From Phytohabitans houttuyneae (lineage in GTDB: Bacteria > Actinomycetota > Actinomycetes > Mycobacteriales > Micromonosporaceae): 64,000 nucleotides of DNA. Under the pieces are notes generated by a model that saw only the letters and a program-made list of their open reading frames with translations, made no database searches and had not been told where the DNA came from. How positions within the stretch are numbered: position 1 is the first letter of the stretch; each line of letters begins with the position of its first letter. The stretch is taken from assembly GCF_011764425.1 (NCBI RefSeq), contig NZ_BLPF01000002.1, forward strand, positions 310,001 to 374,000, in the 5' to 3' direction. The translations under genes and the position numbers were made by a program. This document shows, one piece after another, positions 5,608-41,375 of this stretch.

Positions 5608-5614
5608 GACCGCC

Positions 5615-8524: not shown

Positions 8525-11500
8525 GTGATTCGGCGTGCGCTGGGTGGGTTCGTCGCGTTGGCGACGGTGTTCGCGGCTTCGTCGTTCGTCGGTCCGCAGT
8601 CCGCGTCCGCGGTCGCGCTGCCGAGCGGGTTCCAGGAGCAGGTCGTCTTCAGCGGCCTCAGCTCGCCGACCGATCTGGAGTTCGCGCCGGACGGGCGGGT
8701 CTTCGTCGCCGAGAAGGGCGGCCGGATCAAGGTCTTCGACGACCTCGCCGACACCACCGCGACGGTGTTCGCCGACCTGTCCGCGAACGTGCACAACCAG
8801 TGGGACCGGGGCCTGCTCGGACTGGCGCTGGCGCCCAACTTCCCGGCCAGCCCGTACGTGTACGTGCTGTACACCTACGACGCGCCGCCCGGTCAGACCG
8901 CCCCGGTCTGGAACGACGTGTGCGCCAACGCCAACGACGGGCGCTGCGTGGTCACCGGCCGGCTCTCCCGCCTGCAGGCCAGCGGCAACACGATGACCGG
9001 CAGCGAGCAGGTGCTGCTGCACGACTGGTGCCAGCAGTTTCCGAGCCACTCCATCGGTGACATCGCCTTCGGCGCGGACGGGATGCTCTACGTGGCCGCC
9101 GGCGACGGCGCGAGCTTCAGCGCGGTCGACTACGGCCAGCTGCCCGCCGGGGCGCCGACCAACCCGTGCACGGACCCGGCCAACGAGGGCGGGGCGCTGC
9201 GATCGCAGGACATCCGCACCGCGGGCGACGAGACCCAGCTGGACGGTACGCTGCTGCGGCTCGACCCAGCCACCGGCGCGGCCGCGGCCGGCAACCCGAA
9301 CATCGGCTCGGCCGACCTGGACACCCGGCGGATCGTCGCCAACGGCCTGCGCAACCCCTTCCGGATCACCATGCGGCCGGGCACCAACGAGGCGTGGATC
9401 TCCGACACCGGATGGAACACCTGGGAGGAGGTCAACCGGGTGGTCAACCCGACCGCCGGCGTGACCAACTTCGGCTGGCCGTGCTGGGAGGGCAATGCCC
9501 GGCAGTCCGGGTACGACAGCGCCAACCTGCCGATCTGCGAGACCCTCTACACCGCGCCGGCGGGCACGCACGCCCCGCCGTTCGTGGCCTGGAACCACGC
9601 CAGCAGGCTCGTCGCGGGCGAGGCCTGCCCGACCGGTGGCTCCTCGTCGACCGGCGTGGCGTTCTACCCGACCGCCGGCGGCCCCTACCCGGCCGCGTAC
9701 AACGGCGCGGTCTTCTTCGCCGACTACTCGCGCCGGTGCATCTGGGCGTCGCTGCCGTCCACGCCGGGCGGCCTGCCCGACGCGGCCAACCTGCAGACGT
9801 TCGTGTCCGACGCCGCCAGCCCGGTCGACCTGGAGGTCGGCCCCGGCGGCGAGCTGTACTACGCCGACCTCGGCGGCGGCACGGTCCGCCGGGTGCGCTA
9901 CTTCCCGGGCAACCAGCCGCCGAGCGCGGTCGTCGAGGCGTCGTCGACGCAGGGTCCGGCGCCGCTGACGGTGACGTTCAACGGCACCGGCTCCACCGAC
10001 CCCGACCCGGCCGACGAGGGACGCCTGCGGTACGCGTGGGACTTCACAAACGACGGGGTGACCGACTCCACCTCGCCGACGGCGACGTTCACCTACAACA
10101 CGGCGGGCTCGTACACGGCGCGGCTGACGGTGACCGACACGTTGAACGCGACGGGCACCAGCACGATCACCATCACGCCGGGCAACGAGGCGCCGACGGC
10201 GGTGATCGACACGCCGGCCGCGAGCACGACCTGGGCCGTCGGCGACACGATCGCCTTCTCCGGACACGCCACCGACCCGCAGCAGGGCACGATTCCCGCG
10301 TCCCGCCTCGACTGGGACCTGGTGATGCACCACTGCTCCACGCCGGACAACTGCCACGAGCACAACGTGCGCAGCTGGACCGGCGTGGCGTCCGGGTCGT
10401 TCGAGGCACCGGACCACGAGTATCCGTCCTATTTGGAGCTCAAGCTCCGCGCCACCGACCAGGACGGCCTCTCGCACGCCGTGACGCGGCGGCTGGACCC
10501 GAAGACGGTCAACCTGACGTTCGCCACCGTGCCGTCCGGACTCCAGCTCACCGTCGGCTCGTCGTCGGGCACCACACCGTTCTCCCGTACCGTGATCCAG
10601 GGCTCGACCAACTCGGTGTCCGCGCCGTCGCCGCAGGGCTCCTCGGTGTTCGCGTCGTGGTCCGACGGCGGGGCGCAGACCCACGTCATCACCGCGCCCG
10701 CCGCGGCGGCGACCTACACCGCGACCTACACGGCGGCTCCGACTTCCCAGCGGATCGGCTACACCCAGGTCGGCGCGTCGCTCGACAGCGGCGACATGAA
10801 CCACATGAACGGCTCGCGGTTCGTCACCGGCTCCGAACCGGCGGCGGTCACGTCCATGTCGGTGTACCTGAAGACCGTGCAGGCGGCGCCGAACAACCAG
10901 TACCAGCTCGCCATCTACGCCGACTCGAACGGCTCGCCCGGCGCGCGGGTGGCCACCAGCACGTCGGGCACGCTTGTGGCCAACTCGTGGAACACCCGGC
11001 CGGTCACCGCGACGCTGGCCGCCAACACGCCGTACTGGCTCATGTACAACACCAACGGCGACAACAACATGAGCTTCGACGCCGGCAGCGCCAACCAGGG
11101 CGCGTGGAGCGGATCCACGCTGTTCGGCACCTGGCCGGCGACGTTCGGCGCGTCCAGCCGGTGGAACGCGAAGTTCTCCATCTACGCGACGGCCGGCGCG
11201 GACACCGGCGCGCCGACGGTGAGCTCCACGACCCCGGCCGGCGGCGCCACCGGAGTGGCGGTGAACGCGCCGATCACCGTGCGGTTCAGCGAGGGCATGG
11301 CGGCGGGCACCATCACGCCCGCGAACCTGGAGCTGCGCGGCCCGGGCGGCACCCTGGTCAACCGGACCGTCACCTATGACGCGGCCAGCGAGGCCGCGAC
11401 GATCACGCCGTCCGCGGCGCTGGCCGCCTCGACCCAGTACACGGTGACCGTCCGGACGGGCGTGACCGACGCGGCGGGCAACGCGCTCGCGGCCAACCAC

Positions 11501-11980
11501 CAGTTCTCGTTCACCACGGCCGCGACCACCGCACCGCGGTTCGGGTACGACCAGGTGGGTGCCTCGCTGGACTCCGGCGACATGAACTACATGAACGGCT
11601 CGCGGTTCGTCAACGGCGCCACCGCGCTCACCGTCAGCCAGATCTCCGTCTACCTCAGGGGCGTGCAGGCCGCGCCGGCCAACCAGTACCAGGTGGCGAT
11701 CTACACCGACGTGAACGGCTCGCCGGGCACGCTCGTGGCGTCGAGCACGTCGGGCACGCTCACGGCGAACTCGTGGAACAGCCGGCCGGTCACCGCGACG
11801 CTGGCGCCGAACACGGCGTACTGGCTCATGTACAACACCAACGGCGACAACAACATGAGCTTCGACGCCGGCAGCGCCAACCAGGGCGCCTGGAGCCAGC
11901 CGCGCCCGTTCGGCACGTGGCCGTCGTCGTTCGGTACGTCCACCCGCTGGACCGCGAAGTACTCGATCTACGCCTCATAG
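8525..11980 (+). CDS. Secreted PQQ-type sugar dehydrogenase-like multidomain protein
   Basis: About 1151 residues. An N-terminal secretion signal ('ALGGFVALATVFAASSFV', cleavage near ASA) is followed by a six-bladed glucose/sorbosone dehydrogenase-like domain (about 30-460; 'TDLEFAPDGRVFVAEKGG', 'RGLLGLALAPNF', 'NGLRNPFRI'). Then come a PKD domain (464-550), a second Ig/PKD-like domain (552-660), a sandwich domain A (738-892), a Big_5 Ig-like domain (893-1000) and a near copy of A (1001-1151). The enzyme probably oxidises a sugar outside the cell, with the C-terminal modules binding a polymer; both points are inferred from family. GTG 8525 lies nine bases after GGAGG (8511-8515). ATG 8519 is also in frame but only three bases from that site. 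Confidence 0.82.
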   Translation: MIRRALGGFVALATVFAASSFVGPQSASAVALPSGFQEQVVFSGLSSPTDLEFAPDGRVFVAEKGGRIKVFDDLADTTATVFADLSANVHNQWDRGLLGLALAPNFPASPYVYVLYTYDAPPGQTAPVWNDVCANANDGRCVVTGRLSRLQASGNTMTGSEQVLLHDWCQQFPSHSIGDIAFGADGMLYVAAGDGASFSAVDYGQLPAGAPTNPCTDPANEGGALRSQDIRTAGDETQLDGTLLRLDPATGAAAAGNPNIGSADLDTRRIVANGLRNPFRITMRPGTNEAWISDTGWNTWEEVNRVVNPTAGVTNFGWPCWEGNARQSGYDSANLPICETLYTAPAGTHAPPFVAWNHASRLVAGEACPTGGSSSTGVAFYPTAGGPYPAAYNGAVFFADYSRRCIWASLPSTPGGLPDAANLQTFVSDAASPVDLEVGPGGELYYADLGGGTVRRVRYFPGNQPPSAVVEASSTQGPAPLTVTFNGTGSTDPDPADEGRLRYAWDFTNDGVTDSTSPTATFTYNTAGSYTARLTVTDTLNATGTSTITITPGNEAPTAVIDTPAASTTWAVGDTIAFSGHATDPQQGTIPASRLDWDLVMHHCSTPDNCHEHNVRSWTGVASGSFEAPDHEYPSYLELKLRATDQDGLSHAVTRRLDPKTVNLTFATVPSGLQLTVGSSSGTTPFSRTVIQGSTNSVSAPSPQGSSVFASWSDGGAQTHVITAPAAAATYTATYTAAPTSQRIGYTQVGASLDSGDMNHMNGSRFVTGSEPAAVTSMSVYLKTVQAAPNNQYQLAIYADSNGSPGARVATSTSGTLVANSWNTRPVTATLAANTPYWLMYNTNGDNNMSFDAGSANQGAWSGSTLFGTWPATFGASSRWNAKFSIYATAGADTGAPTVSSTTPAGGATGVAVNAPITVRFSEGMAAGTITPANLELRGPGGTLVNRTVTYDAASEAATITPSAALAASTQYTVTVRTGVTDAAGNALAANHQFSFTTAATTAPRFGYDQVGASLDSGDMNYMNGSRFVNGATALTVSQISVYLRGVQAAPANQYQVAIYTDVNGSPGTLVASSTSGTLTANSWNSRPVTATLAPNTAYWLMYNTNGDNNMSFDAGSANQGAWSQPRPFGTWPSSFGTSTRWTAKYSIYAS
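11031..11103 (+). repeat. 73-bp perfect direct repeat, copy 1 (copy 2 at 11817-11889)
   Basis: Bases 11031-11103 and 11817-11889 are identical and 786 bases apart, inside the two copies of the C-terminal domain of the secreted dehydrogenase. Perfect DNA identity within a more diverged protein duplication suggests recent duplication or gene conversion between the copies. Confidence 0.85.
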
Positions 11981-20423: not shown

Positions 20424-22163
20424 GTGAGGGTGAGGGCCGGGCGGGGCGTGGTGCACACGCTTGTCGCTGCGGGTGTGCTGCTCGCAGCGGTCGTGCTCCC
20501 GTGCAAGGCGGTCGACGTCGAGCACTCGGTATGGGAGAGCGTCTTCACCGGGTTCAGCGGCCTGCTCTTCCTCGGAGCGGGCGCGGTGGCGCACCACCGC
20601 CGGCCGGACAACCGGGTCGGGCTGTTGATGGTGCTCGTCGGCGTCGGCTGGTTCGCCGAAGACGTGCGCTTCATTCCGTTCGCGCTGACCCACACGCTCG
20701 GCCTGATGCTCAGCACCGCGTCGAGCGGGTTCCTGGCTCACCTCGTGCTCGCGTTTCCGACCGGCCGGCTGGGCTCGCGGCCGCTGCAGTGGCTCGTGGC
20801 CGCCGCCTACGTGGCGGTCTTCGGGCTGACCCCGCTGGGCGCGCTCTTCCAGGACGTGTCCCACATCGGCCCGGACTACCAGCGCAACCTGCTGTTCATC
20901 GACTCGCCGGCGATGCTGGCCGCGGTGGCAGCGGTGGTGGCCGCGATCGGTGCGTCGGTGGCCGGCGCCGTGGCTGGAGTGCTCGTCTGGCGGTGGGTGC
21001 GGGCCACGCCACCGCAGCGCCGCCTGGTCGGGCCGGTGCTGCTCACGTTCCTCCTCGGCGGTGCGGCATCCGCGACCGGCAACGCGTTGAGCCAGTTCGA
21101 CGCGGTGCGCATCGGCGCGCTCACGGTGTACAAAGTGGCCTTTTGTGTCTTGCCTTTGGTCTTTCTCGCCGGCGTCCTGCGCGTGCGGCTGGGCCGGACC
21201 GCGGTCGCCGAGCTGCTCGTCGACCTGCAGCGGCCGCTGTCGCCGGCGGAGCTGCGCGACCGCCTCGCCGCTGCCCTCGGCGACCCCACCCTCCAGGTTG
21301 GATACTGGCGGCCGGACGCCACCGAGCTTGTCGACGCGGCGGGCGCGCCGCTGCCGCTGCCGCCACCGGGCAGCGGCCGGACAGTGACCTATGTGGACCG
21401 CGCGGGCCAGCGGGTCGCCGCGCTGCTGCACGACGCGGCGCTGTGCGAAGACGGCCACGTGCTGCGGGCGGTGACCGCGGCTGCCGGCCTGACGCTGGAA
21501 AACCAGCGGCTGACCGCCGAGGTGCGGGCGCAGCTCGGCGAGGTCCGGGCGTCAAGGGCGCGGATCGTCACCGCGGTCACCGAGGAGCGCCGCCGCATGG
21601 AGCGCGACCTGCACGACGGCGTGCAGCAGCACGTGGTGGCGGCCGCGATCGGCATCCGCGCCGTCGAGAGCCAGCTGGGCTCGGAGACCGGCGACGGCGC
21701 ACGCGTGCTGCTGCGGGCCTGTGGCGAAGGGCTGGACACCGCGCTGTCCGACCTGCGGTCGCTGGCCCGAGGCATACACCCGGCGATCCTGAGCGAAGAC
21801 GGCCTGGTCGCCGCCCTCCAGTCCCTTGTCGAGCGGATGCACGCGCCGGTCGAGCTGGCGGCGGCCGAGATCCCCCGGCTGCCGCTGGCGGTCGAGGCCA
21901 CCGCCTACTTCGTCGTGGCCGAGGCGGTGACCAACGCGATGAAGCACGCCCACGCCGACCGGATCCGGATCACCGTCGAGCCCGCGCGGGGCGCTATCCG
22001 CGTGACGGTGGACGACGACGGCATCGGTGGTGCGGCCGTCACCGCGGGCTCGGGCCTGCTGGGGCTTGCCGACCGGGTACGCGCGCTCGACGGCGACCTG
22101 TCCGTGCGGAGCCTGCCGGGGCAAGGCACTACGGTTACCGCGATCCTGCCCGCCGGAGCATGA
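20424..22163 (+). CDS. Sensor histidine kinase (intact paralogue of the 18000 kinase)
   Basis: About 579 residues. Multiple N-terminal membrane helices and a linker with GAF-like character precede the His box '[20 protein letters not shown]' and '[20 protein letters not shown]'. A complete HATPase domain follows, with '[12 protein letters not shown]', 'VDDDGIGG' and '[11 protein letters not shown]'. The layout matches the truncated kinase at 18000, so the two pairs look like a tandem duplication. The start could be GTG 20424 or GTG 20430. It is ten bases upstream of its regulator. Confidence 0.92.
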
Positions 22164-22173
22164 GGGAGCGCGC

Positions 22174-22854
22174 GTGACGACCAGGGTCGTGCTCGCCGAC
22201 GACGCGGCACTCGTCCGCACGGCGATCGGCGTCCTGCTGCGGCAGCACGGGTTCGACGTGGTCGCGGAGGTGGGGGACCGGCCGGCGCTGTGGGACGCGG
22301 TGGCCTCGGCGCGGCCCGACGTGGCCGTGGTCGACGTGCGGATGCCGCCCACGAACCGCCTCGAAGGGCTCGAGGCGGCTATCGACATCCGGGCCACCTA
22401 TCCCGCGGTCGGGGTACTGGTGCTCTCGCAGTACCTGGAGTCGCGGTACCTGACCACGCTGCTCGGCGACAGCGCCCGCGGCGTCGGATACCTGCTGAAG
22501 GAGCGGGTCGGCGGCGCGGCCGACTTCGTCGACGCGGTCCGGCGGGTGGCGGCCGGCGGCTGCGCGGTCGACCCCGAAGTGGTCTCGCTGATGCTGGCCG
22601 GCCGGCGCAGCGACGACCCGCTGCAGCGGCTCACCGCGCGCGAGCGGGAGGTGCTGGCCCTGATGGCGGAGGGACGCTCCAACCAGGCGATCGGCGACCG
22701 GCTCTTCCTGACCCCCAAGACGGTGGAGTCGCACGTGCGCAGCATCTTCCTGCGCCTGGACCTCCCGCCCGAGCCGGAAAGCCACCGGCGCGTGCGCGCG
22801 GTGCTCGCCTACCTGCGACCCGCCGCGCCTACCCGGCCCGCAGCAGGCTCCTGA
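22174..22854 (+). CDS. LuxR/NarL-type response regulator
   Basis: A 226-residue partner of the 20424 kinase. Receiver motifs: '[18 protein letters not shown]', '[16 protein letters not shown]', '[10 protein letters not shown]' and 'YLLKERVGG'. LuxR domain: '[21 protein letters not shown]' and '[16 protein letters not shown]'. GTG 22174 follows GAGGGAG. The 3' end overlaps the convergent receiver-only gene by 26 bases. Confidence 0.95.
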
Positions 22855-23248
22855 GCGCCTGCGCGGTCAGCGCCGACTTGGTGAGAAACCCGGCGGCCCC
22901 GCAGCCGTCGAGCTTCGTGCCGTAGTCCGCCGCCGCGCGTACCGAGCAGAGCACCACCCGGGTCGTCAGGCCCGCCGCCCGTACCGACCGGAGCACCGCG
23001 AACCCGTCCGTGTCCGGAAGCTCCACGTCGAGCAGCACCACGTCCGGCGCCAGCGCGGCGATCACGATGAGCGCGTCGGCGCCGGTGGCCGCCTCGCCCA
23101 GGACGCGGAACCCGCCGGCGGCCAGGAGCACCGCGGCCATCGTCCGGAAACCGGCGTGGTCGTCCACGACCACCACGGTGGTCGGTTCGCCGGCTCGCGC
23201 TCCTTGTCCGATGACACCAGCCTGGTCACATCCGCCGGCCGCACACAT
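22829..23248 (-). CDS. Stand-alone receiver-domain protein
   Basis: A 139-residue CheY-like protein with no output domain. It has '[20 protein letters not shown]', the phospho-Asp in '[14 protein letters not shown]', 'VLCSVR' and Lys in 'GFLTKSAL'. All phosphorylation residues are present, so it could act as a phosphate sink or a protein-interaction switch for the neighbouring kinases (inference). ATG 23248 is chosen over ATG 23281, which would leave little room for the divergent GTPase promoter. No convincing ribosome site is seen for either. Confidence 0.8.
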
Positions 23249-23298
23249 CAGGGCCCGCCCTGATGTATCGCGGCCGTCCACTGCCGAGCATCGTACGC

Positions 23299-24564
23299 AT
23301 GGCCTTCCTGCTCGTCCTGTCGCTGCTGGCCCTGGCCGGCCTCATGGTCACGCTCACCGGCCGCCACATGCGCCGGCGCCGGCAGGTGCGCGCCTTTCCC
23401 GAGCTGCCGACACCGACGTTCAAGGTGGTGGCGCTGGGCAACAGCGGCTCCGGCAAGACGGTCCTGCTGGCCAGCCTCTTCTACCAGTTCCGGGCGCGCC
23501 CCGGCCGCCCGTACTACCTCGACACCGACGCCTCCACCCGGGTCATGCTCGGCAACCTGCTGTCCACAGTGGTCGACCCGACCGAGCCCTGGCCGAGCGC
23601 CACCCGGCGCGACGGCACCCGCACCTACCGCTTCGACTGCGTCACGCAGGTCGAGGAGAAGCCGACGACGGCGTTCACGATCGAGTACCTGGACTACGCC
23701 GGCGAGATCTTCGAGCTGCTCGGCGCCGGCGACACCGCCCTGGACGACCTGGTCGGCAAGGTCATGGCGGCGGACGCCCTGATCGGCGTGCTTGACGGCC
23801 GCCGCGTGCTGCAGTTCCTGCGCGGCCAGGCGCAGGGCCGGGCCTACCTCATCGCGAAGATCGCGGTGATGGTCCAGCTGATGGCCAGGGCCCGGTGCGC
23901 CGTCTACCTCGTCATCTCCAAGTGGGACCTGGTGCGCGACTTCGGCGAACCAGCCGGGTCGGACGACCGGGCCCGGCTGGACGCCGTGGTCAAGGCGCTG
24001 ATGACCGTCGAGCACATCAGTGACCTGGTCCGCTCGCGCACCACCGTCCGGCTGATCCCGGTCAGCGCGGTCGGCTCCGGATTCGCCCGCCTCGACGAGT
24101 CGACCGGCGTGGTCACCAAGCGTCCCGACGGCACGTTCGCGCCGTACAATGTGGACATTCCGGTTGCCGCGATCATCCCGGACCTCTTCACCCGCGTGCG
24201 GCAGAGCATCGACAGCCAGCTCGTCGGGGCCATCGAGAGCGAGTACCGGGTGCGGCGGCGGCACACGCCCGACGAGCTGGTCAGCGAGATCGGGGCGTTC
24301 CTGCTCCGGCCCGCCGGCGTCGCCATGCGCGCCACGCTCGACAGCGTCATGAGCCGCCCGTACAGCAACGAGCTCGTGGGCATGATGCTCGACTGGATCG
24401 CCCGGCCCAGCCAGCACAAGGCCGCCGAGCTTGCCGCGTTCCGCGCCGAGTCGCACCGCCAGGCGTACACGCTGCTCGAAGCGCGCACCGTCGTCCTCGA
24501 CGACTTCCAGCGGATGCTGCACCGGCTCGAGCACGACCTGCCGGCATCGGTGCTGTCCCGATGA
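23299..24564 (+). CDS. Membrane-anchored P-loop GTPase-like protein
   Basis: A 421-residue protein with an N-terminal helix ('FLLVLSLLALAGLMVTL') and an Arg-rich stop (RRRR), then a TRAFAC-like GTPase domain. Walker A is GNSGSGKT (about 47-54), a switch II-like DxAG sits in 'IEYLDYAGEIFE' and the specificity motif appears as 'VISKWD' in place of NKxD. It may belong to the double-GTPase (DO-GTPase2) group described in actinobacterial conflict systems, but I hold that loosely. It is first in an operon: the next ORF overlaps its stop by four bases. ATG 23299 is chosen over GTG/ATG further upstream because it begins right at the helix. Confidence 0.75.
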   Translation: MAFLLVLSLLALAGLMVTLTGRHMRRRRQVRAFPELPTPTFKVVALGNSGSGKTVLLASLFYQFRARPGRPYYLDTDASTRVMLGNLLSTVVDPTEPWPSATRRDGTRTYRFDCVTQVEEKPTTAFTIEYLDYAGEIFELLGAGDTALDDLVGKVMAADALIGVLDGRRVLQFLRGQAQGRAYLIAKIAVMVQLMARARCAVYLVISKWDLVRDFGEPAGSDDRARLDAVVKALMTVEHISDLVRSRTTVRLIPVSAVGSGFARLDESTGVVTKRPDGTFAPYNVDIPVAAIIPDLFTRVRQSIDSQLVGAIESEYRVRRRHTPDELVSEIGAFLLRPAGVAMRATLDSVMSRPYSNELVGMMLDWIARPSQHKAAELAAFRAESHRQAYTLLEARTVVLDDFQRMLHRLEHDLPASVLSR

Positions 24565-25406
24565 GCAGCGGCTGGGCCTTCCTGGTGGCGCGGGGCCGCC
24601 GGCAGGGTTTCCGGGCCCGCCTCGTGCCCGCGGTGCTCGCCGAGCACGGCCTCGCCGGCCTGCTGGAGGAGAACCGCTCCGCCGACACCCCCATCGGCCG
24701 GGTCACGCTCGTCACGCGTACCCACCGGATCCGGCCACAGGACATCGGTAGCGCGAGCGTGCTGGACGAGCACGGCCGCCCCCTCGAGATCAGCTACGGG
24801 TTCGTGCACCTCGGCGCCCCGCATCCGGCCGCCGAGGAGGCCGGCCTCGCCACCGCGTACGCCCAGGCGCTCGATACGTACCGGCGCCTGCTCGCCGACG
24901 AGACGGGCTTCGAGACCGAGGTCTCGGCGCCGTTCGCGCTGCCGGTCGCGCCCCTTGCGGCGACGACCGCGGTGCGGCCGCCGGGCCGGGCCCGGATCGC
25001 CGCCGGGTTCGCCGCCGCGGGCCTGCTCGCCGCCGTCCTGGTCGCCGTCTTTGCCGTGGTACGCGGCGACCCGCCGGACGACGACCTGAACGGCACCTGG
25101 CAGGCGGAGACATTCGCGGTCACCGTCACGTGCGGCCCAGGGTGTCCCGTCCCGGCGGGCACCCCGATCGGCACGGCGCGTGCCGCCGCCTGCACATATC
25201 GGCTCGTCCTCGCACAGCCGGCCGGCGATGGCATCCGGGCCGCCGCCAGCCGCACGGCGGGGGAGGCCTGCCTGGCCGACGGCCTGCTCTCGCTGCGCCG
25301 CACGGACGACGACCGCGCGAGCCTGGAATGGCGCGACACCTCCGGCACGCTGCTGGCAGAGGCCACCCTCCGCGTTCAGCCCGGCCCCGCCGATCCGACG
25401 CAATGA
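24561..25406 (+). CDS. Single-pass membrane protein of unknown function, GTPase operon
   Basis: A 281-residue protein that I cannot assign to a family. Residues 1-145 look cytoplasmic and mixed alpha/beta ('WAFLVARGRRQGFRARLVP'). One membrane helix spans about 147-168 ('GFAAAGLLAAVLVAVFAVV'). The remaining ~110 residues are beta-rich with four Cys and an opening 'DDDLNGTWQAE', somewhat like a lipocalin-type barrel. The start overlaps the GTPase stop (ATGA) and the stop is 13 bases before the LGFP-repeat gene, so the three should be made together. A membrane-spanning link between the GTPase and an outside signal is possible (inference). Confidence 0.72.
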   Translation: MSSGWAFLVARGRRQGFRARLVPAVLAEHGLAGLLEENRSADTPIGRVTLVTRTHRIRPQDIGSASVLDEHGRPLEISYGFVHLGAPHPAAEEAGLATAYAQALDTYRRLLADETGFETEVSAPFALPVAPLAATTAVRPPGRARIAAGFAAAGLLAAVLVAVFAVVRGDPPDDDLNGTWQAETFAVTVTCGPGCPVPAGTPIGTARAAACTYRLVLAQPAGDGIRAAASRTAGEACLADGLLSLRRTDDDRASLEWRDTSGTLLAEATLRVQPGPADPTQ

Positions 25407-25419
25407 GGAGTTGAGGTCC

Positions 25420-28400
25420 ATGACCACCTGCGTACACGACGCCGTCGGCCTGATCGGCGACCGCTGGCGGGAGACCGGTGCGGAGCTCGGGCCGCTGGGC
25501 TGCCCGCTCGGCCCGGAGGCCGACGACGGTGCCGGCAACCGGGTCCAGGTGTTCGAACGCGGCGAGATCGCCTGGTGCCCCAGGCAGGACATGGTCGTCA
25601 CGTGTTACCGGCTGCGCGACTACGCCTGCTTCGAGTGGCAGCTCGCCAGCGAGCACTACCACTACGAGTGGTGGCAGTTCGAGGCGTTCATCGACGGTCG
25701 CCGGCTGGGCCGGTCGGCTTCGCTGTTCACGTACGACGGCGACGTGCCGCACCGGCAGCGGCGCGGTCGCATGCCCATGCGGATCCAGAGCGCGGGCCGC
25801 TACGAGTTCGAGATCCGCGGCTGCGACGACCCCGACGGCGACCGCTGCGAACAGGGCTGGACGAAGCGGATCGGGTTCACCGTCGGCCACCGCGACGGCA
25901 ACCCGTTTCCCGACGACGCGCCCGTCGACGGTCTGATCGCGGACCGATGGCACCTCTACGACGCCTGGGACGGCCCGCTCGGCCGGCCCACCGGTCCCGC
26001 GGTCACGACCGCGGAAGGCGCGCGGCAGCAGACGTTCACGAATGGGCAGATCAGCGTCGACCCGCGGTTCGGCGACCTGGCCACGGTCCTCTACACCGAC
26101 CGGGAGGCCGTCTTCTTCACCTGGGGACCGGCCTCCTACCCGGAAGCGGGCGGCATGCGCCCGACCCACTACCGGGTCGACTGGCACCGGGAGCAGGGCG
26201 AGCCCGTCGTCGCGTACCTGGAGCCCGACGACGCGTGGGTCGAGTTCAGCTGCGGCGGCTACCAGCTGCGGGACGGCCTGCCGGCCGGCCGTCAGGAGCT
26301 GCGGCTGTTTCCCGGCCTGCCCGACTCGCCGTACGGCGAGGTGGGACCGGCCCAGCCGGTGCCGTCGGTACTGTTCCAGCCGAGGCCGGGCGGGGTGGAT
26401 CTGGGTCCGGCCGCGCTCGGTGGCACACCGGCGGCGGCCGTGGCCACCGACGCGGCACGCATCCGGGCGGTGGTGGACGCCTTCGCGGCCAGCGGCACCG
26501 TGCTGCCGTCGAAGCAGCTGTACCACAACGAGGACCTCGGCGCGCTGCTCGTGGCCCACCTGCAGGCGGTGCGCGACCACGGCGACGGCCGCTACACGGT
26601 GCCCGGCGGCTGGCTGCCCACCGCGACGATGGTCAACGAGGCGCTCCTCAACCTGCGGCCGACCTCGGTCGGCACCGACAGCGACAAGGATCTCAGCGAC
26701 CTGCAGTGGGTGTACTGCCGGAAGATCAATGGCGAGTACGACACCCTGCTCAAGCACCTCGTCGCGATCGCCTACCGCTACGACGACCTGCTCCAGCCGC
26801 GGGTCCGCGCGCACCTGCTGGACTGGCTGCTGTCGGTGCGCGGCCGGCACGACGAGGCTGTGATGACCAAGCAGCTGTGCTGCAACTGGTCCGAGCTCGG
26901 CGCCGCGGCGGTCGCGGCTGCCGGGATCTTCCTCGGCCCGATCGTGCTGCCGGGCCTGGGTGGGCCGCCGTGCATCCCGATCCCCGAGTCGGAAAACCAT
27001 GTGCTGCTCATCGAGAGCAGTCGCTACCTCACCAACCAGCTCCTGCACCGGCGGGACCCGGCCGTGGACTTCGACAACGGCGCCAACGGCTTTCGGCAGT
27101 GGATGCTCAACTACCTGCAGGTCGCGGCGCGACACGACTTCCTGGAGTTCAACGCGCGGCCGTACCTGCGGTACACGTTCAACGCGCTGCTGAACCTGGC
27201 CGAGTTCGCCGACGACGAGGTGTCGACCGCGGCGCAGCTCCTGCTGGACTACCTGACGGTGAAGTTCGCGGTGTCCAGCAGCAGGCTGCGGCGGCTCGGG
27301 CCGTTCCGCAGGCTGCGGGATCAGTCCTACGCCGAGGACCCGGTCGGTCTCAACGATCTCTACGGCAGGGACGCCGACGAGATGACCGCCTTCTTCCACC
27401 ACTACACCGGACCGCCGCCGCTGGCCGATGGCAGCCCCGGCAAGCACATCCCGCACTGGTGGTTCATCGAGTGCCTGCTCGCCGGGCTGGCACCGTACCG
27501 GCCGCCGGTAGCCGCCTACGTCCTCGCACTGGACGAGACGTGGACCGGCACCCACTCCTTCCACCTCGGGCTGCGCCCCCCGATCCCGGCCGGCGAACAG
27601 GCCGACGCCGGTGTCGAGAGCTACTACCGCTCGCCGTCGTTCCTGCTGACCTCCGGCGGGATCTTCCTCAACAGCGGCTACGCCAACGACGGGATCGCCA
27701 AGTACAAGAACGCGGCCATGCCACAGCCGATCACGCTGCTGCCCACCGGTGGCGCCCTGACCTTCGACCAGCTCATCCGCCTCGACGTGTGGCCGGACGT
27801 GCGCAGCGGCGTCAACACCGCGGCGTTTCACGGGTTCGCGTGCGGCGCCAACCTGCACATCCCCGCGTGGCTCAAGGACCCGGCCACGCCGTTGCAGGGC
27901 TGGTACACGTTCAACCTGGACGCCGACCGGCCCGAGCACGGCAACCTCGGCCTGTACGTCGCCGCACTCGTCACCGCGCCCGCCGAGATCTACGACGAAG
28001 GCCAGCCGTCCAGCGCGTGGCCGACCAACTGGGCGTTCTTCTACGCCGTAGAGGCCACGAGCATGCCTTCCTTCGAGGAGTTCGAGCGGCGCACGATCGA
28101 GGACAACCGCGACCTGATCCCGGGCGACTCCTCGAGCCTGCGCGCCGGCGTCGACTACGTCTTCAACGCCCCCGACGGCAAGCGGATCGAGTTCGTCATC
28201 GCCCCGTCCTCGGACCGCCAGTTCGGCGAGCGGTTCGCCAAGGGCGACCGGTACTCGATGCGCATTCGACGCGTCGGCAACGCGACCGCGCCGGCGGACC
28301 TGCAGCAGCTGCCGCTGGCGGCGGGGAGTTCCTGTGGTCCGTCGGGCACACCGGCCGCTTCGAGTTCATCTACCCGGGCTGCCTGGACACTCCACGGGTC

Positions 28401-29522
28401 CTGGACTTCACCGATGTCGAGCACCCGTCGCGCTCCGGCCCGCTCGCGTGCACCTCCTGGTACGACGAGCTGTGGGCGGCCTACTTCGCCCGCGCGTTGG
28501 ACCGCCTCCGCAACGGCGACGCCGCGGCCGCGCTGGAGCTCACCGCCCGGACCCTGGAGGAGTTCGGCCGGATCCGGGCCGTCACACCCGACCTCAGCAA
28601 CGCCAAGCTGTACGAGATCGCCGGCCAGTGGCACGCGACCGCGCAGGCGGCCCACCCGCACGACGTGCCCGTGCAACTCGGCGCGGCCCAGAACGCGTGG
28701 CTGCTGTACCGGTTTCTGACCGACGACGACCCGACCGAGCAGCGGCGGGGCTTTCTCGCGCCCACCCTGGTGAACCTGGCCGGCTACCTCGCCTTCGGCT
28801 CACCGGACACGGCGCAGGCGTCCAACGCCGCCGCCCTCGGCCGCCATGTCTACGCGGGGCTGCCCGGCGATCACCGCCTGGACATCGCCAGCTCGTGGTC
28901 CGGCCAGGCACTGTTCCACCACGAGGTGGCATTCAACCCGCGCAACCCGGACCCGCCGGCCGAGCTGCTCCGGCAGCGCACCGCCGCGGCCGAGGCGTTC
29001 GCGATCGTCGACCCGATCGTCCAGGCCCTGCCGGACCCGGCGCTGACGGCCGCGGACCTGGAGCGGGCCGCCGCGATCCTACGCGGGCTCATCGGGCTGC
29101 TCACCTTCGGCTCACCGGACTCCGCCCCGAGCGAGCGGGCCGCGGAGGCGATCCGGTCGGTCTACGCCAACATCGCCGACCGCGACCACCGCATCGACGT
29201 CGCCGAGAGTTGGGCGATCCTGTCGATGCGCCACCACGAGACGTCGTTCGTGCCCGGCTGCCCCGACCCGGCCGACGAGCAGCGCCGCCAACGCATGGCC
29301 GCGCGGGAGGCCGCGCGGGTGCTGGTGCCGCTGGGCGAGCGGCTGCCGGACCCGGCGATCAGCGCCGCGGACATGGTGCGCGTCGCCGACCTGCTCGACC
29401 GGACGGCCAGCTTGCTGGTCTTCGGCGCGCCCCCGCCGCCGGACCCGGAGACGTTGGAGCTGCAGCGCCTCGCCAACACCGCCACCGCGCTCAGGGACCG
29501 GATCCGTAGCTTGACTGCGTGA
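25420..29522 (+). CDS. Giant LGFP-repeat protein with C-terminal helical repeats, one apparent frameshift
   Basis: About 1367 residues after repair. Two LGFP-like repeats (about 8-55, 'LGPLGCPLGPE', and 175-225, 'DGPLGRPTGPA') flank a beta domain; a second beta domain follows (230-330). A large, mainly helical region of unknown fold comes next (340-960; 'QWMLNYLQVAARHDF', 'YLRYTFNALLNLAEFAD'). The C-terminus has repeated ~100-residue helical units opening with L-x-x-FGSPD ('YLAFGSPDTAQ', 'LLTFGSPDSAP', 'LLVFGAPPPP'). There is no signal peptide despite the LGFP repeats, which usually bind cell wall. The frame shifts at the G run 28323-28326; adding one G joins 'LPLAAG' to 'EFLWSVGHTGRFEF'. Third gene of the GTPase operon. 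Confidence 0.78.
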
Positions 29523-29561: not shown

Positions 29562-29768
29562 ACCGCCATATTGAGATCCCTCGATTGATCTCGATGGGTG
29601 GTTCAGCGATGCGCGGACTACCCGCCCCGAGCAGCCGCGAACGCGTCGACGGTCAGCTCGAAAGCCTTCCGCTTTTGCGACCGATGCCGCATGCCTTCGT
29701 GCAGGCCGCGGGTGCGACCCCGATTCAACGACGAAAGGAAAAGTCGCTATGAGCAAGGGGCGTATGCG

Positions 29769-31112
29769 GTGACCGACGTACCGAACCCGCGCTGGGTGCG
29801 GCAGGCTGTGCCGGACGGCCGTCCGCTGCTTGTCCACGTCAACACCACCTCGACCGGCGGCGGGGTGGCCGAGCTGCTCCACCGGCTGATCCCGGCACAG
29901 CGCGACGGCGGCCTCGCGGTCGGGTGGGCTGTCGTCTCCGGCACGCCGGAGTTCTTCGCCCTGACCAAGACGATCCACCACCTGCTGCACGGCAAGGGCA
30001 ACCCCGCCCCGCTGCACGGCGCGGACGCCGGAGTGCTGTACCGCTCGGTGCTGCAGCCGCAGGGACACTGGCTCGCCGCGCAGCTTCGAGAGGGTGACAC
30101 CGTCGCCCTGCACGACCCGCAGACGCTCGGCCTGGCCCCCATGCTGGCCGCGCGCGGGATCCGCGTCGCGTGGCACTGCCACATCGGAACGACCGACGGG
30201 TCAGCCACCACGCCGGAGCACGTATGGCGTTTTCTCGCGCCCGAGTTCGACGACGTGGATGTCGTGCTGGCCACGCGGCCCGAGTTCGGCCCGCCCGGCT
30301 TCACCCGGACGAGGTACGTCGTGCCCCCGGCGATCGACCCGGACTCGCCGAAGAACCAGCCGCTCACCACCGCCGAGGTCGACGCGCTGCTCACCGCGAT
30401 CGGGCTGTTCGGGACGGCGGCCGGCGGCGACTCGTCCGCCACGATCGACCAGGTCGGGCCGGTGCCCCCGGACGCGCCGATGGTCCTGCAGGTGTCGCGG
30501 TGGGACCCGCTCAAGGACATGGCCGGAGTGCTGCGCTGCCTGCCCGGGATACCGCAGGACGCCCACCTGGTCCTGGCCGGACCGGATCCGCACGAGGTGA
30601 CCGACGATCCGGAGGGAGTCGCGATCCTGGAGGAGGTCCGCGCCGCGTACCGCGATCTGCCCGAAAGCGAACGGCGGCGCACGCACCTGGTGACCCTGTC
30701 GATGCGCGATCCCCACCGGAACGCCCTGCTGATCAACGCCCTGCAGCGGCGCGCCGACGTGGTGCTGCAGAAGAGCCTTGAGGAGGGCTTCGGCCTGACC
30801 GTCACCGAAGCCATGCACAAGTCCCGTCCCATCGTGGCGTCGGCGGTCGGCGGCCTGGCCCTGCAGGTCGTCGACGGCAAGACCGGTTTGCTCGTCGACC
30901 CGACCGACTACACCGGCGTGGCCGGCGCCATCCGCCGCCTGCTCGAGGATCCCGAGCTGAGCCGCCGGCTCGGCTCGCAGGCGGCGGCCGAGGCGGCGCG
31001 CCTCTTCCACCTCTCACGACTCGTGGCGGACTACCGCCGGGTGGTCGACCAGCCGCACACCGGAAAGGAACCCGCCGCGGCCAGCGGCGTGCGGGGAGAC
31101 GTCACGGTGTAG
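29769..31112 (+). CDS. Trehalose-synthase-like GT4 glycosyltransferase
   Basis: A GT-B glycosyltransferase of 447 residues resembling TreT (NDP-glucose plus glucose to trehalose). Matching signatures: 'NTTSTGGGVAELLHRLIPA', 'HDPQTLGLAPML', 'WHCHIGTT', 'VVPPAIDPDSPKN', 'VSRWDPLKDM' and the E-x7-E motif in 'LEEGFGLTVTEAM'. The GTG at 29769 overlaps the stop of a seven-codon frame starting at ATG 29749, which has the better ribosome site (AAAGGA). If one G is missing from the run 29757-29760, the true start is 29749 and the protein opens MSKGAYAVTDVP. It could make compatible solute or a glycosylated product. Confidence 0.8.
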   Translation: MTDVPNPRWVRQAVPDGRPLLVHVNTTSTGGGVAELLHRLIPAQRDGGLAVGWAVVSGTPEFFALTKTIHHLLHGKGNPAPLHGADAGVLYRSVLQPQGHWLAAQLREGDTVALHDPQTLGLAPMLAARGIRVAWHCHIGTTDGSATTPEHVWRFLAPEFDDVDVVLATRPEFGPPGFTRTRYVVPPAIDPDSPKNQPLTTAEVDALLTAIGLFGTAAGGDSSATIDQVGPVPPDAPMVLQVSRWDPLKDMAGVLRCLPGIPQDAHLVLAGPDPHEVTDDPEGVAILEEVRAAYRDLPESERRRTHLVTLSMRDPHRNALLINALQRRADVVLQKSLEEGFGLTVTEAMHKSRPIVASAVGGLALQVVDGKTGLLVDPTDYTGVAGAIRRLLEDPELSRRLGSQAAAEAARLFHLSRLVADYRRVVDQPHTGKEPAAASGVRGDVTV

Positions 31113-31235: not shown

Positions 31236-34200
31236 CTACGCGTCGCAGGTCTGGGTGAAGGCCAGGTCGGGAGCATGGTTGTCCCATTCCTCCCGGGTGA
31301 GTCCGTGACCGACGATGCCGCAGGCGTATCCGAGCGGGTCAGTGACCATTGTGGTCAGTGCCCGCAGGTCCCACATGGCGTACGAGATTTCGGGGTTGTC
31401 GGCGCCGGACCTGCTGGACGTGGCCACGAGCAGGCCGCTGTCGGCGCTGACGGTGATCTGGTCGATCTCGGCCGAGGCGCCGATGAGGGTCGCGACGCGG
31501 ATCGGCTCGCTCGGGTGTGTCAGGTCCCACATCGCGACCCGGTGGCCGTCCCCGGTGAAGATCAGTCGGCCGTCCGCACTGTAGGTGGCGACGCTGCCCG
31601 CACCGAGGGGACCCACGGGGTGGACGAGGTCAGGTTGATGAGCGTCAGCCTGCGGTCGGCGATGATCTTGCTTCGGGCGTCGGCCGCCAGTTGTTCGCCT
31701 CCGCGGGGAGCCGTCAGCTGGCGTTCGCGCCGGGCGGTGCTGGCGCCGTCGATCCGCCAGACGGAGACGGTCGTGGGTTTGCTCTCCTCGTCGCTGTCGG
31801 AAGCGGTGGGGGATCAGTGATCATCGCGACCGTGCCGTCGGGGCTCAGGGTGCGCGCGGTCCCGTCCGCGGTGAAGATCTGCCGGGGGTGGTGGCGGTCG
31901 TCGAGGTTCCACACGGTGGTCCGCTGTTGAGCCTCGGACCAGGCCATGGCCACCCGTCCGTCGCGGCTGAGGGCGACCGTATCAGCGTCGGGGAGGGTGG
32001 CCAGCTGCTCGGGATCGGCGGGGTCGCCGAGGTCCCAGAGGACAGCTCCGCTGGTCTCGCCGCCTATGACGGCGGCAAGCGGGGCGGCTTCGGCCAGCTG
32101 GACCGCTCGCGCGTTCGGGAATCGGGCCAGCTCCGCGCCGGAGGACAGGTCGCGGAGCAGGAAGTCGTCGCCGGCGCTGATCAGCGCGGTGCGGCCGCCA
32201 GCGGTGAGCTGCTGCACGGTTTCGCCGCTGCCGGTCTGGAAGCTGCTCTCGCTCGGGGAGCCGGCGGGGCGCTCGGGCATCGTGACGAGACGGCCGGGGA
32301 CGGCGTCGCCGTGCACGAGGACGGTGCCGCCGTCGTCGCCGAGGGTCAGGCGGGACAAGGGTGACAGGACGCGGTGTGGGTCTGGTCGCAGCGGGTCGAC
32401 GGTGCTCCAGATCCGCGCGGATCCGTCGAGCGCGGCGGTGAGCATGGTCCTGTCGTCGCCGACGAGGATCTCCGACACGGGACCGCTGTGACCCTCCAAT
32501 GTGGCCACCCGCCGCGGGTAGGCGGAGGTGATGTCCCAGACGCTCGCGCCCGTGTCGTCGCGGCCCGCCAGGGTCACCGTCGTGCCCTCCGTGTTGAACG
32601 ACGAGGTCCACACGGCGCCCTGCATGCCGGTGAGCGTGGCGTAGAAGGTGGGGTAGATGGGATCGCTCACGTTCCACAGCTCGGCTCGGCCGCTGCCCGT
32701 GCCCACGACGGCGAGGTCGCGGGATCGGCTGAAGCCGACGGTCCAGATCGGCTCGGACCCGCTGCCGATCCGCGAGCGCAGGGACGGCGTGTAACCGGGG
32801 TAACGGATGTCCCACAGCAGGGCCTGGCCGTTGTCGGAGCCGGTCAGCAGCGTCTCGCCGTCGGGGCTGAAGGCGACCGACCACACTGGAGCTGGCTGCT
32901 GCGGCAGCTCGGTCTCGATGCGCGGGTTCGCGGGGTCTGTCACGTCCCAGATCGCGACCTGGCGCGGATCGTTTCCCCAACTGATGACGACCTTGTCACC
33001 GTCGGGGCTGTAGGCGACGGCCCACACCCGCGGCCAGCCTGCCTCCCGCAAGCCGGGGGTGGTGAGCACCGACAGCGCCTGCGGGTTCGCCGGATCCTTC
33101 AGGTCCCACATGACGTTGCCCTCGATCAGGTACCGGCCGTCCGGGCTGAACGCGGCCTCGTACGTTGGCCCGGTGTTCCACCCCTCCTCGTGCGGCAGCT
33201 CGGCCACCCGCCGTGGCCGGTGGCGGTCCCTGATGTCCCAGACGGTGCTCTTCGGCAGGTCCTCCGCGAAGAGGTTGTCGAAGCCGCCCAACACGGCGAG
33301 GTCCAGCTTGGGCGAGACCGCCAGGCTCCGCACGTGGCTGCCGAACTCGCCGACCGTCCCCGCGTAGCGGCTGGCCTGGATGTGCTTGATGAGGTTGGCC
33401 CGGTTGTCCCTGCTCGGATCGAGGCGGTAGGCGGCGACGGCGAGTTGGGTCGCTGTGCCTGGCTGCGTCGCCTGCACCGCGTCGGCCTGGACCGTAAGCG
33501 CCCGGATGGCGGCGATCCGCCGCTGCTCGTCGGCCGATCGAAACGCGGTGACCGCGGCGACCGCGGCGGTGACGGAGGCTACGAGCAGGATGGTGAGGAC
33601 CAGCGAGAGGACGGCGAGTCGGCGGGTGCGGCGTTTGGCGGCGCTCTGCCGGGCGGTCTCCGCGGCGATGCTCTCGGCCAGAAACGCGGCCGGGAGCTCT
33701 CCGAGCCGGTCCGGCTGGCCCTGGCTCTCGGCCCAGCCACGGGCCACCTCGAGCCGGCTGTCTCCGTACAGCGCCGCGGGTTCACGGCCTTCGCGATCCC
33801 AGGCAAGGGCCGCGTCGAGGAGCCGCTGGTGGATGATCAAGCCCTCGCGGTCGCTGTCGAGCCAAGCGCGCAGGGTCGGCCAGGCAGACAGCAGCGCCTC
33901 GTGGGTGATCTCCACCGTCTCCTCGTCGATGGTGACCAACCGCGCCTGGTCGGCGCTGAATGCCCGCAGCGCGGTCTCGGCGGAAGCGGGATCGGCGAGT
34001 TCGGACAGCAACTGGGTCCAGCCGACCCGCCGCCGGGTGTCGTCGGTGCCGTCGCCGACGCGCACCAGCCGGCACAGCACCTGCCGAGCCGCGGCCCGCT
34101 CGGCCTCGTCGAGGTCCGCCAAAACCTTGTCGGCGGTACTGGCCAGTGCTCCGTGGATGCCCCCGGTCGCCCGGTACGCCGGGATTGTCAGGACGCCGTC

Positions 34201-35835
34201 TTCACGGTTGTGCCAGGTGGCCAGGAGCGCGTGTGACAGTAACGGCAGCCGGCCCGCGTGGTCGTTCGGGCCACCGTCGCGCGGAACCCCCAGGTCCGCC
34301 AGCATGAGGTCGGCAAGACCGGTCTCCACCGCCAGCCCGACCGCGGCGGCCGGGCGTTCGACGGCGTCGGTCAGCTCCCGTCCGTTCATCGCGCCGACCA
34401 GCGCCGGGCTGTTCTCAAGAGCCCGCGCCAATCCCGGGTAGCCGGCGCACCGGCCCAGAAAGTCCGCCCGGACACCGAGCACGACGAGCGCGGCCGGAAC
34501 GTCGTCGCCATCACCGGCGAGCGCGCCGAGTGCCGCGATGAACGCCTGCTGCGCCATCGGGTCCGTGCACTGCGTGAACGTCTCCTCGAACTGGTCGACG
34601 ACCAGAACGACCCGCCCACTGTCGCCGGAGGGGCCGAGCGTCTCGCGCAACGCCGCGTGGGCCACCGCGGTCGCTTCCGACGGGCGGTCAAGCAATGTCG
34701 CCCGCAAGCGGTCACGATCTGGGCCGGACTGGGCGATCCCGGCCAGCTGCTGAGCGAGCTGACCGATCGGATCGGCGGTGGGCGTAAACAGCAACCGTGG
34801 CCAAGCCACCGAGCCGGAGATGTCGAGGTCACCGCGAGCGACCGCCGGCAGCAGGCCAGCGCGCAGCAGCGAGGACTTGCCGGCGCCCGAGGCGCCCGTC
34901 ACGAACAGCGGCGCGGGCTGGTCGAACCGTTCAGCCACCCGGCGCACGAGAGACTCGGTGAGCGCCTCCCGCCCGTAAAACCATTGGGCGTCGTCGCTCT
35001 CGAAGGCGGCCAGGCCGCGGTACGGGCATTCGCCGGTCGCCAACGGGTCGGCCGCGACCGCTGGACCGCGCAGCGGGGCACGGATCCGGTAAGCGGGATT
35101 GTCGGTGAGGATGAGGTGCCCAGCGTTGCCCGTGGTGCGGATCCGCGGGCGCGGGCCGCCGGCGGCGGGCAGCGTCCTGGCCAGTTCCCGGTACAGGTCC
35201 TGGAGCGTGAGGTACTGCGGGCCGTCCTGCCAGCCGTCGGTCAGCAAGCGGATCAACTCACCGGTGAACGCGGTGTGTCGCGCGCCTTCCGGCGCGAGTG
35301 CGAGCTCATCGGCGCCGGCGGATGTCAGCACGAACGCGCCGTCGATGCCGGCGAGGTCCGCCATCTCGTCGCCGGTGCCGCCAAGACCCGCCGTCGCCTT
35401 CCCGGCGAAGCAACAGTCGAGCACGACAATCAGCGGCCGGGCCGCGCAGTCCCACAGGTACCGCCGGACCGTCTGGTAGCTCAGCGCGGTGTGCTCCACA
35501 CGACTCGGCCGCCGGTCGGTGGCGGCCGTGGCCAGGTAGAGGCCGTTACCCGAGCTCACCAGGCCGTGCCCGACGTAGTACACAAGCAAGGGACCGCCCG
35601 CGGCATCCTCGGCGCCCGCGGCGATCACATCGCCCATCTCCAGCGGGCTCGCCAGGTCCAGGTGGCGCCGCACCGCCGAGGGGCGCATGCCGCACCGGCT
35701 GATCAGCAGCCGCTCCAGGTCGGCGAGCGTCGACGCGACGGCGGGAACATCGGTCAGGGCGCCGGTGTAGGTGCCGGCGCCGATGAGGAGCGCGAGCCCG
35801 TCCGTGGCAAGCGCGCGGCGGCTCCGGTTACTCAT
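31236..35835 (-). CDS. Caspase-nSTAND NTPase-TM-WD40 effector (EACC1-associated caspase type), two apparent frameshifts
   Basis: About 1533 residues after repair. The caspase-like peptidase is at 1-240, with catalytic His90 in 'YYVGHG' and Cys142 in 'VVLDCCFAG'. It is followed by 'CPYRGLAAFESDDAQWFYGR', the hallmark opening of nSTAND1 NTPases, with Walker A GASGAGKSS (314-322) and Walker B VVLVVDQFEE (409-418). A membrane helix lies at about 738-765 and a WD40-like propeller from about 840 to the end (repeated 'SVAFSPDGETLL'/'WDI' units). The last ~190 residues are reached only by adding one base at each of the runs 31808-31812 and 31607-31610. ATG 35835 lies inside the last codons of the EACC1 gene, so translation is coupled. 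Known analogues are predicted conflict or cell-death effectors. Confidence 0.88.
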
Positions 35836-36190
35836 CGCCAGATCTGGCGAACGTGGCCAGGTCATCGACAAGGTCGCGGACGGCCGCCGCGGTCAGCCCC
35901 TGGACGTACTTCGCCGACACTTTCATGGTGGCGCCATCCGCCCTGCTGACCTCGACCTCGACGTCGGTGCGCCGGGTGCGCAACCACTGCACGACTCCGG
36001 CCGCGAACGCACCGACCCCGGCCGGCCCCAACACCGCCACCAAGCCGTCGGTGATCGCTCCGAGCGTGCCGGAAACGGCCTCGCCCTCGCGTAGACGCAC
36101 CCGCCCCCGAAGCTCGTCCTCCTCGCCCAACCATCGCGCGAGCTCGCGAACGCCGTCCGCGGAAGGGCTGACGACCACACCAACGTCCAC
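35828..36190 (-). CDS. EACC1 (effector-associated constant component 1) protein
   Basis: A 120-residue protein with the EACC1 pattern: 'ELARWLGEEDELRGRVRL', a Gly/Ala-rich hydrophobic middle ('GPAGVGAFAAGVVQWLRTRR') and the strand 'DVEVEVSRADGATMKVSA' before a final helix. EACC1 is the constant partner of variable peptidase/NTPase effectors in actinobacterial and multicellular-bacterial conflict systems, and is thought to link a stimulus to the effector. GTG 36190 is chosen because GGAGG lies eight bases upstream; the ATG at 36247 has no such site. It overlaps the caspase gene by eight bases. Confidence 0.85.
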   Translation of the reverse strand: MDVGVVVSPSADGVRELARWLGEEDELRGRVRLREGEAVSGTLGAITDGLVAVLGPAGVGAFAAGVVQWLRTRRTDVEVEVSRADGATMKVSAKYVQGLTAAAVRDLVDDLATFARSGDE

Positions 36191-36284
36191 CAACACGACC
36201 TCCAAGCACGGCGCGACGGAGCTAACCGATACGCGACCGGGCCACATGGTCGACAGGCTGTTGTCGCTTATTCGACTCGCGGGG

Positions 36285-40722: not shown

Positions 40723-41375
40723 GTGATCCGGGTACTGCTCGCCGACGACGAGGTGATCGTCCGGGCCGGTGTGAAGGCGATCCTGGCCGCCACGCCGGAC
40801 ATCGAGGTGGTGGCCGAGGCCGGTGACGGGCACGAGGCGCTGGAGTTGGCCCGCGTGCACCGTCCCGACGTCGCCCTGCTCGACGTCCGGATGCCGGTGC
40901 TGGACGGGCTGGCCGCGGCCGCCGAGTTTCGCCGGGCGGCGCCGGACGTCGCGGTCGTGATGCTCACGACGTTCGCCGAGGACGAGTACATCGCGGCGGC
41001 GTTGGACAGCGGCGCGAGCGGCTTCCTGTTGAAGTCCGGCGACCCGTACGAGCTGATGGCGGCCGTGCGCGCGGTGCACGGGGCGCCGCGTTCCTGTCGC
41101 CGGAAGCCGCCCGCCGGGTGATCAGCCTGTTGAACGGCGGTGTGATGACCCGCCAAGCCGCCGCCCGGGAGCGGATCGCAGCCCTGACGGCGCGAGAGCG
41201 GGAGGTGCTCGCGCTGGTGGGCACCGGACTGTCCAATGCGGAGATTGGCGAGCGGCTGTTTCTTGTCGAAGGCACGGTCAAGGTCTACGTCAGCACCATG
41301 CTGAGCCGGCTCGGGCTCAAAAACCGCGTGCAGGCGGCGGTGCTCGCCTACCAGGCGGGACTCGTCGAGGAGTAG
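40723..41375 (+). CDS. LuxR/NarL-type response regulator, one apparent frameshift
   Basis: About 217 residues after repair. Receiver: 'VLLADDEVIVRAGVKAILAA', 'VALLDVRMPVLDG', 'VVMLTTFAED' and 'GFLLKSGDPYE'. LuxR domain: '[21 protein letters not shown]' and 'GTVKVYVSTMLSRLGL'. The frame breaks at the G run 41080-41083; one added G gives 'AVHGGAAFLSPEAARRVISL', the usual inter-domain sequence. Its likely kinase is encoded at 43984, on the far side of the convergent FtsX-type permease gene, so the three form one sensing unit (inference). Confidence 0.87.

Follow-up and report, generated by a model that had tools for sequence, protein, structure and literature searches.

A GTPase–linker gene pair in Phytohabitans houttuyneae that looks like a GAP1-free relative of DO-GTPase systems

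A 64,000-nucleotide stretch of the 11.3-Mb genome of Phytohabitans houttuyneae (contig NZ_BLPF01000002.1, positions 310,001 to 374,000 of the forward strand; hereafter the window) was analyzed for three adjacent genes encoding a GTPase, a small membrane protein (the linker), and a long protein with LGFP repeats. A first-pass annotation had described these genes as one three-gene system. Their order, with a 4-base overlap between the GTPase and linker genes and a 13-base gap before the third gene, was borne out by the reading frames, and an upstream ATG at 23263 is a possible alternative start of the GTPase. Comparison with related loci indicates that it is the first two genes that form the conserved unit, and the pair looks like a relative of the DO-GTPase systems without GAP1. 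We tentatively favor, at somewhat below even probability, a two-gene membrane receptor–GTPase switch that is free of GAP1 and has a locus-specific third gene as its cargo, and we present it as a testable lead rather than a demonstrated system.

Relatives of the GTPase were searched for in samples of genomes from the order and the class, in which few candidates were scored per genome, and the counts are therefore lower bounds. They were found in at least 11 of 397 order genomes and, using the family profile, in at least 7 of 364 class genomes, both counts including the P. houttuyneae genome; there was no match to the GTPase among plasmid records. The GTPase loci outside the window numbered 17 (labeled L037–L046, L051, L052, and L061–L065), L051 and L062 being in one genome. 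A linker relative lies directly behind the GTPase in 10 of these loci (L037–L044, L051, and L052), which makes 11 of 18 with the window. The two genes are tightly coupled: eight of the 11 junctions are 4-base overlaps, and the other three are gaps of 3 (L041), 1 (L043), and 7 (L051) bases.

Six of the linker relatives were found using the window linker alone as the query. The linkers of L042 and L044 were first chosen by their position and motif; a profile from which they had been left out recovered both (4.9e-12 and 1e-21, respectively), as well as the linkers of L051 (1.2e-12) and L052 (2.5e-12). When the search started from the linker, matches were obtained in 7 of 298 genomes of the order and in 3 of 394 of the class (P. 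houttuyneae included in both), and every match was at a GTPase. The six order genomes besides P. houttuyneae had already supplied rows to the profile, which leaves the two remaining class genomes as the matches independent of it. No linker relative was found away from a GTPase in the genome samples searched. For the remaining loci, the contig stops behind the GTPase in L061, and L045, L046, and L062–L065 hold more distant GTPases at which no linker relative was detected. Small genes behind the GTPases of L062, L064, and L065, which start near an RGR-like motif, were considered as distant linkers and rejected at the level of the controls in hhalign (probability 0.10–0.72%, E 0.079–0.54; up to 0.87% for nine controls, one of which was in a wrong frame with a stop).

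The linker comprises a conserved N-terminal domain (approximately residues 1–140) with an FLVARGR motif, one membrane segment, and a cysteine-bearing tail. The window linker had no match in Pfam, NCBIfam, or PADLOC, the L037 linker had none in NCBIfam, and a comparison with PDB sequences gave no linker match at E 1. Nine linker rows run against Pfam yielded PASTA in one row, weak matches to PycTM (0.016) and CwsA (0.025) in one row each, and nothing else. Two PASTA stretches were located past the membrane segment in the L039 linker (5.5e-19), and the tail of the window linker had no PASTA match. The first-pass annotation knew no named system with this make-up. The GTPase gave only a weak PADLOC match, of 18.3 bits, to the mad8 model, by which two other window genes are caught as well, and the conserved part is two genes rather than three.

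Membrane segments were called by a simple hydropathy scan with a threshold of 1.6. This agreed with the first-pass description of an anchored GTPase, which has an N-terminal segment and a weaker hydrophobic stretch at residues 188–206, and of a second protein spanning the membrane once. Both partners carry a hydrophobic segment in 7 of the 11 pairs (the window, L037, L038, L039, L040, L043, and L044), neither does in three (L042, L051, and L052), and only the linker does in L041. The L039 GTPase is borderline at 1.61, and L042, where the order is GTPase, linker, GTPase, was scanned leaving out its second GTPase. The chance of such agreement between partners is approximately 0.02 by hand arithmetic that makes no correction for relatedness.

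The anchoring and the PASTA pattern fit a predicted topology in which the partner domain lies inside the cell and the sensing tail outside. The linker would cross the membrane once; its conserved inner domain would pair with the GTPase, presumably by direct contact, and its variable outer tail may sense the envelope, as the two PASTA domains in one relative suggest. A signal from outside would alter the nucleotide state of the GTPase via the inner domain, and the GTPase would then engage whichever product the adjoining gene encodes. In the window, this cargo would be an LGFP-bearing, probably glycan-acting protein, lyase-like and with repeats, that would stay in the cell as a putative effector. 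The L039 linker relative resembles membrane receptors with PASTA domains in its two PASTA stretches beyond the membrane segment, whereas the inner part here is the linker domain instead of a kinase, and the window tail differs from them in having no PASTA match.

The third gene occurs in other contexts elsewhere. A profile search detected it in 5 of 397 order genomes including that of P. houttuyneae, with L018 matching in the LGFP part only, and a scan of genome contigs added Crossiella SN42, Crossiella S99.2, Actinocrispum wychmicini, and Fodinicola feengrottensis, the last of which apparently duplicates L019. Among 72,556 plasmid records, a single one, from Streptomyces (L047), holds a relative, and none was found in viral contigs, for which the third gene was the only query. 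Eight loci were counted, seven with the core and one with the LGFP part only; L003 (a weak LGFP-only match in genome G039, E 2.3e-4) and L019 (apparently the same locus as L024) were left out of this count. None of the eight has a GTPase or linker relative in its vicinity (approximately 7.5–10 kb on either side, and only approximately 1.6 kb downstream in L021), and the third-gene core is at none of the 17 other GTPase loci. The single three-gene system, for which the first-pass annotation had proposed such a survey of the third gene's homologues, was rejected on these counts.

The neighbors of the pair change between loci. A CHAT peptidase gene adjoins it in L037 (2.6e-42) and L040 (1.8e-31), and sigma-70 factor genes are within approximately 6 kb of it in L037, L040, and L043. 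The window also contains two known kinds of conflict module, as the first-pass annotation had reported: an EACC1 gene scoring 88.7 bits, paired with a caspase-nSTAND1-WD40 gene (31714–36205, minus strand), the WD40 end of which seemingly extends in other frames to 31236, and a Trypco1 gene (52180–52494, minus strand) transcribed divergently from a trypsin-like gene that includes a NACHT-like part (52593–57152, plus strand). The changing neighbors are reminiscent of conflict systems, in which a constant core is combined with variable effectors, and a conflict role is conceivable for the pair.

As separate observations on these loci, a repeated set of genes for a small protein, a sigma-70 factor, and a TPR-CHAT protein is beside the pair in L037 (2539–8031) and L040 (4250–9196), and the GTPase–linker–GTPase arrangement of L042 is near genes resembling those for contractile tail sheath and tube by eye, with transposase-like genes between (3068–11692).

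Several points weigh against the favored switch with exchangeable cargo. The CHAT genes are thin support, being beside only 2 of the 10 other pairs (a lower bound, as chosen neighbors were scanned); the L051 and L052 pairs lie amid genes that look housekeeping or metabolic by eye; and only in this genome does the third gene accompany the GTPase, so that it may be a passenger. The main rival explanation, which we regard as possible and somewhat doubtful, is a housekeeping switch for envelope stress or wall homeostasis that belongs to no conflict system, with an unrelated passenger as the third gene. It accords with the surroundings of L051 and L052, the separation of the third-gene relatives from the pair, the PASTA tail on one linker, and the DO-GTPase family gene in psp operons that passages of PMC11237479 tie to membrane stress, but would less readily explain the sparse occurrence of the GTPase in the order, the CHAT genes adjoining two pairs, and the conflict modules in the same window.

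The third protein had been given 1367 residues, and no such reading frame exists. The frame from position 25420 encodes family-like sequence until approximately 28,317–28,326 and then continues in the wrong register as far as the stop at 28719, and the C-terminal repeats sit in a different frame that ends at 29522, which places a one-base frame change near 28,320. Coding-frame tracking gave a strong coding signal on either side of the change, and the relatives L020–L023 continue in a single frame across the matching point. A response regulator gene (40723–41375, plus strand) is also split, its receiver (40723–41121) and GerE (41118–41375) parts being in different frames, and the WD40 end of the caspase gene seems split too, with less certainty (31236–31616 versus 31714–35871; weak WD40 match of 1.6e-4; WD40 end at 31236–31900). 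Because these two further genes in the window look split alike, the frame change is likely an assembly or sequencing fault rather than biology. The frame change could also mean that the third gene is a broken leftover yielding no full protein and that the locus functions with two genes only, but the strong coding signal on both sides and the similar splits of the two other genes make this improbable. The features of the locus are listed in Table 1.

Table 1. Coordinates of the three genes and their features in the window.
Feature	Position	Strand	Basis or remark
GTPase, DO-GTPase2-like family; membrane segment at residues 1–19	23299–24564	+	G domain presumably inside
Walker A, GNSGSGKT	23437–23460	+	Family alignment
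Walker B region, DYAGE; glutamate is a DO-GTPase mark in passages of Kaur et al. 2020 (PMC7159879)	23692–23706	+	Family alignment
G4 motif, SKWD	23917–23928	+	Family alignment
Linker	24561–25406	+	Reading frame, hydropathy, profile of relatives
Only membrane segment of the linker, residues 149–167	25005–25061	+	Hydropathy
Third gene, first part; LGFP blocks (approximately residues 1–330) and core domain (approximately residues 340–966)	25420–28326	+	
Glu-Asn-His, residues 525–527, invariant in seven rows covering it; candidate lyase active site	26992–27000	+	Core alignment
Tyr582, invariant in eight rows, 56 residues past Asn526; candidate catalytic acid/base	27163–27165	+	Core alignment; table of PMC12088678
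Frame-change site, shift of one base; likely assembly error	28317–28326	+	
Third gene, last part in other frame; end of beta-rich domain, then helical-looking repeats	28320–29522	+	
Two repeats of approximately 104 residues (approximately 28758–29066 and 29070–29381); partial third copy after	28758–29381	+	

Around these genes, a stand-alone receiver domain gene (22829–23281, minus strand) is divergent from the GTPase gene, with an upstream region common to both, and a histidine kinase and response regulator pair is just beyond it (20424–22854). A gene for a TreT-like trehalose synthase or glycosyltransferase (29598–31112, plus strand) is directly behind the third gene.

The LGFP repeats (PF08310, 42.7 bits against a cut-off of 22, in two stretches) and the lack of a signal peptide, to judge from the missing N-terminal hydrophobic segment, were as first described for the third protein. 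The C-terminal repeats of about 100 residues were likewise recovered: blastp self-comparison gave no output for them, and pairwise alignment with shuffles revealed them with a local score of 233 against 55 for the highest of 200 shuffles. No homology was detected between them and the TPR-like ends of L017, L021, L023, and L047 (hhalign E 0.13). A hydrophobic segment at the N-terminus, either at the very start or following an internal start, was seen in six of seven relatives scanned, and L047 has none; the Fodinicola gene, the start of which is spread over frames, was unscored. The window protein starts near the point where the secreted relatives start after their signal segment. It shares the PF08310 match with LGFP-repeat wall proteins, such as the C-terminal part of Corynebacterium glutamicum mycoloyltransferase A, and its model matched 6swz in Foldseek, in the LGFP part only (E 4.7e-4); it differs from them in that LGFP is fused to another core and helical-looking repeats without a signal segment. 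The plasmid relative in L047 (9695–13258) lacks an LGFP match, bears a weak GH43/lectin-like insertion, and is flanked by annotated transposase genes.

The core of the third protein is a family without a Pfam match. The large helical domain claimed for it was seen in structure models of low confidence, in which a beta-rich domain follows that had not been described before. This order is also that of the lyases with an alpha/alpha-toroid and beta-sheet in polysaccharide lyase (PL) families PL15, PL17, PL21, PL35, and PL39, in which Asn or His precedes the catalytic Tyr by 52–57 residues according to passages of PMC12088678 and PMC11921355; the table of PMC12088678 gives wider spacings of 59 to 63 for PL8 and PL23. 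The adjacent Asn and His of the core precede its invariant Tyr by 56 and 55 residues in the window and L020–L023, and by 55 and 54 in L047. For the L022 core model, the best PDB fold match was the PL35 enzyme GAGase II (E 0.02, template modeling (TM) score 0.28, 616 columns), and GAGase VII ranked seventh (E 0.18, low TM-score). From the models and the residue pattern, the core may be lyase-like, at perhaps an even chance, and is a candidate alpha/alpha-toroid lyase.

The lyase assignment is opposed by the wider spacing in L017 (69 and 68), the low confidence of the models (mean predicted local distance difference test scores of 46.8 and, for L022, 50.3), and the lack of detectable sequence or profile similarity to the five lyase families. 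Pfam gave no lyase family for eight core rows, PDB sequence searches gave chance-level matches only, and hhalign of the core against Hepar_II_III_N relatives was negative (E 0.96), a weak test as several of the 10 rows look wrong-frame. The His of the beta-domain is also not conserved: no His is invariant, and column 490 is His in five of eight rows, the window not being among them. The window model had no lyase fold match among the 50 listed, and a viral structure library gave no match under E 0.28. Separately, a hydrophobic Ala/Gly-rich insertion (residues 493–511, approximately 26896–26952) is present just before Glu-Asn-His in the window protein and absent in the closer aligned relatives.

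The GTPase contains the Walker A and SKWD motifs noted earlier, and SKWD, which had been called modified, is near the family norm, the 11 other aligned rows covering it having TKWD (10) or SRWD (1). The suggested DO-GTPase kinship was supported at the family level: of 13 family rows, 10 matched PF19993 (DO-GTPase2) with E 0.01 or lower and 5 matched DO-GTPase1, L043 entering as two rows and L042 having two GTPases. The window protein itself is a marginal match, with 25.6 bits against a cut-off of 27 (27.4 bits counting neighbors in the frame). In passages of Kaur et al. 2020 (PMC7159879), DO-GTPase systems are defined by a GTPase with a Walker B glutamate together with GAP1, and two GTPases occur in 38% of systems and N-terminal membrane segments in approximately 13%. 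The glutamate is present in the window GTPase and in only 6 of the 12 rows covering the column, which weighs against the favored switch. The window has one GTPase, and the sole other match in the same genome was at E 0.3. No match to GAP1-N2 was found in this genome, this being the one GAP1 model applied genome-wide (GAP1-N1, -M, and -C were not), nor any to GAP1 in nine linker rows at E 0.1.

The operon shares with the DO-GTPase systems containing GAP1-N2, as far as passages of PMC7159879 describe them, a GTPase that appears related to DO-GTPase2, membrane segments, extramembrane parts in some members, changing neighbors, and actinobacterial occurrence. It differs from them in that no GAP1 was found, no FNIII or GASH part was recognized in the operon proteins, the partner is small and mostly single-pass with its own conserved domain, and there is mostly one GTPase per locus. 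A linker-type partner is not described in the DO-GTPase passages of PMC7159879 and PMC11237479. The window operon may work like a DO-GTPase/GAP1 system, but was not assigned as a member because no GAP1-N2 was found in the genome and no GAP1 in the linker rows. A regular conflict system of that kind, as Kaur et al. 2020 describe it, would agree with the DO-GTPase2 similarity, Walker B glutamate, and N-terminal hydrophobic segment of the window protein and with the linker between two GTPases in L042, but is very unlikely given the GAP1 results, the single GTPase in the window, and the failure to recognize FNIII or GASH parts.

For the two-gene switch with its cargo, a broader and rather unlikely generalization is a class of GAP1-free actinobacterial receptor–GTPase modules, in which exchangeable outer tails (PASTA and others) would sense the state of or damage to the wall, the inner domain would set the switch, and the switch would control exchangeable effectors held inside, such as a CHAT peptidase or, in the window, a wall-targeted lyase-like protein retained for want of a signal segment, for use upon damage or lysis. 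What emerges here is a compact candidate membrane receptor–GTPase pair, apparently related to DO-GTPases and without a recognizable GAP1. The core of the third protein adds a Pfam-less family with invariant enzyme-like residues, which is open to direct test. Should the pair prove to sense the wall and to drive swappable effectors, it would provide a simple model for the coupling of envelope damage to an internal response.

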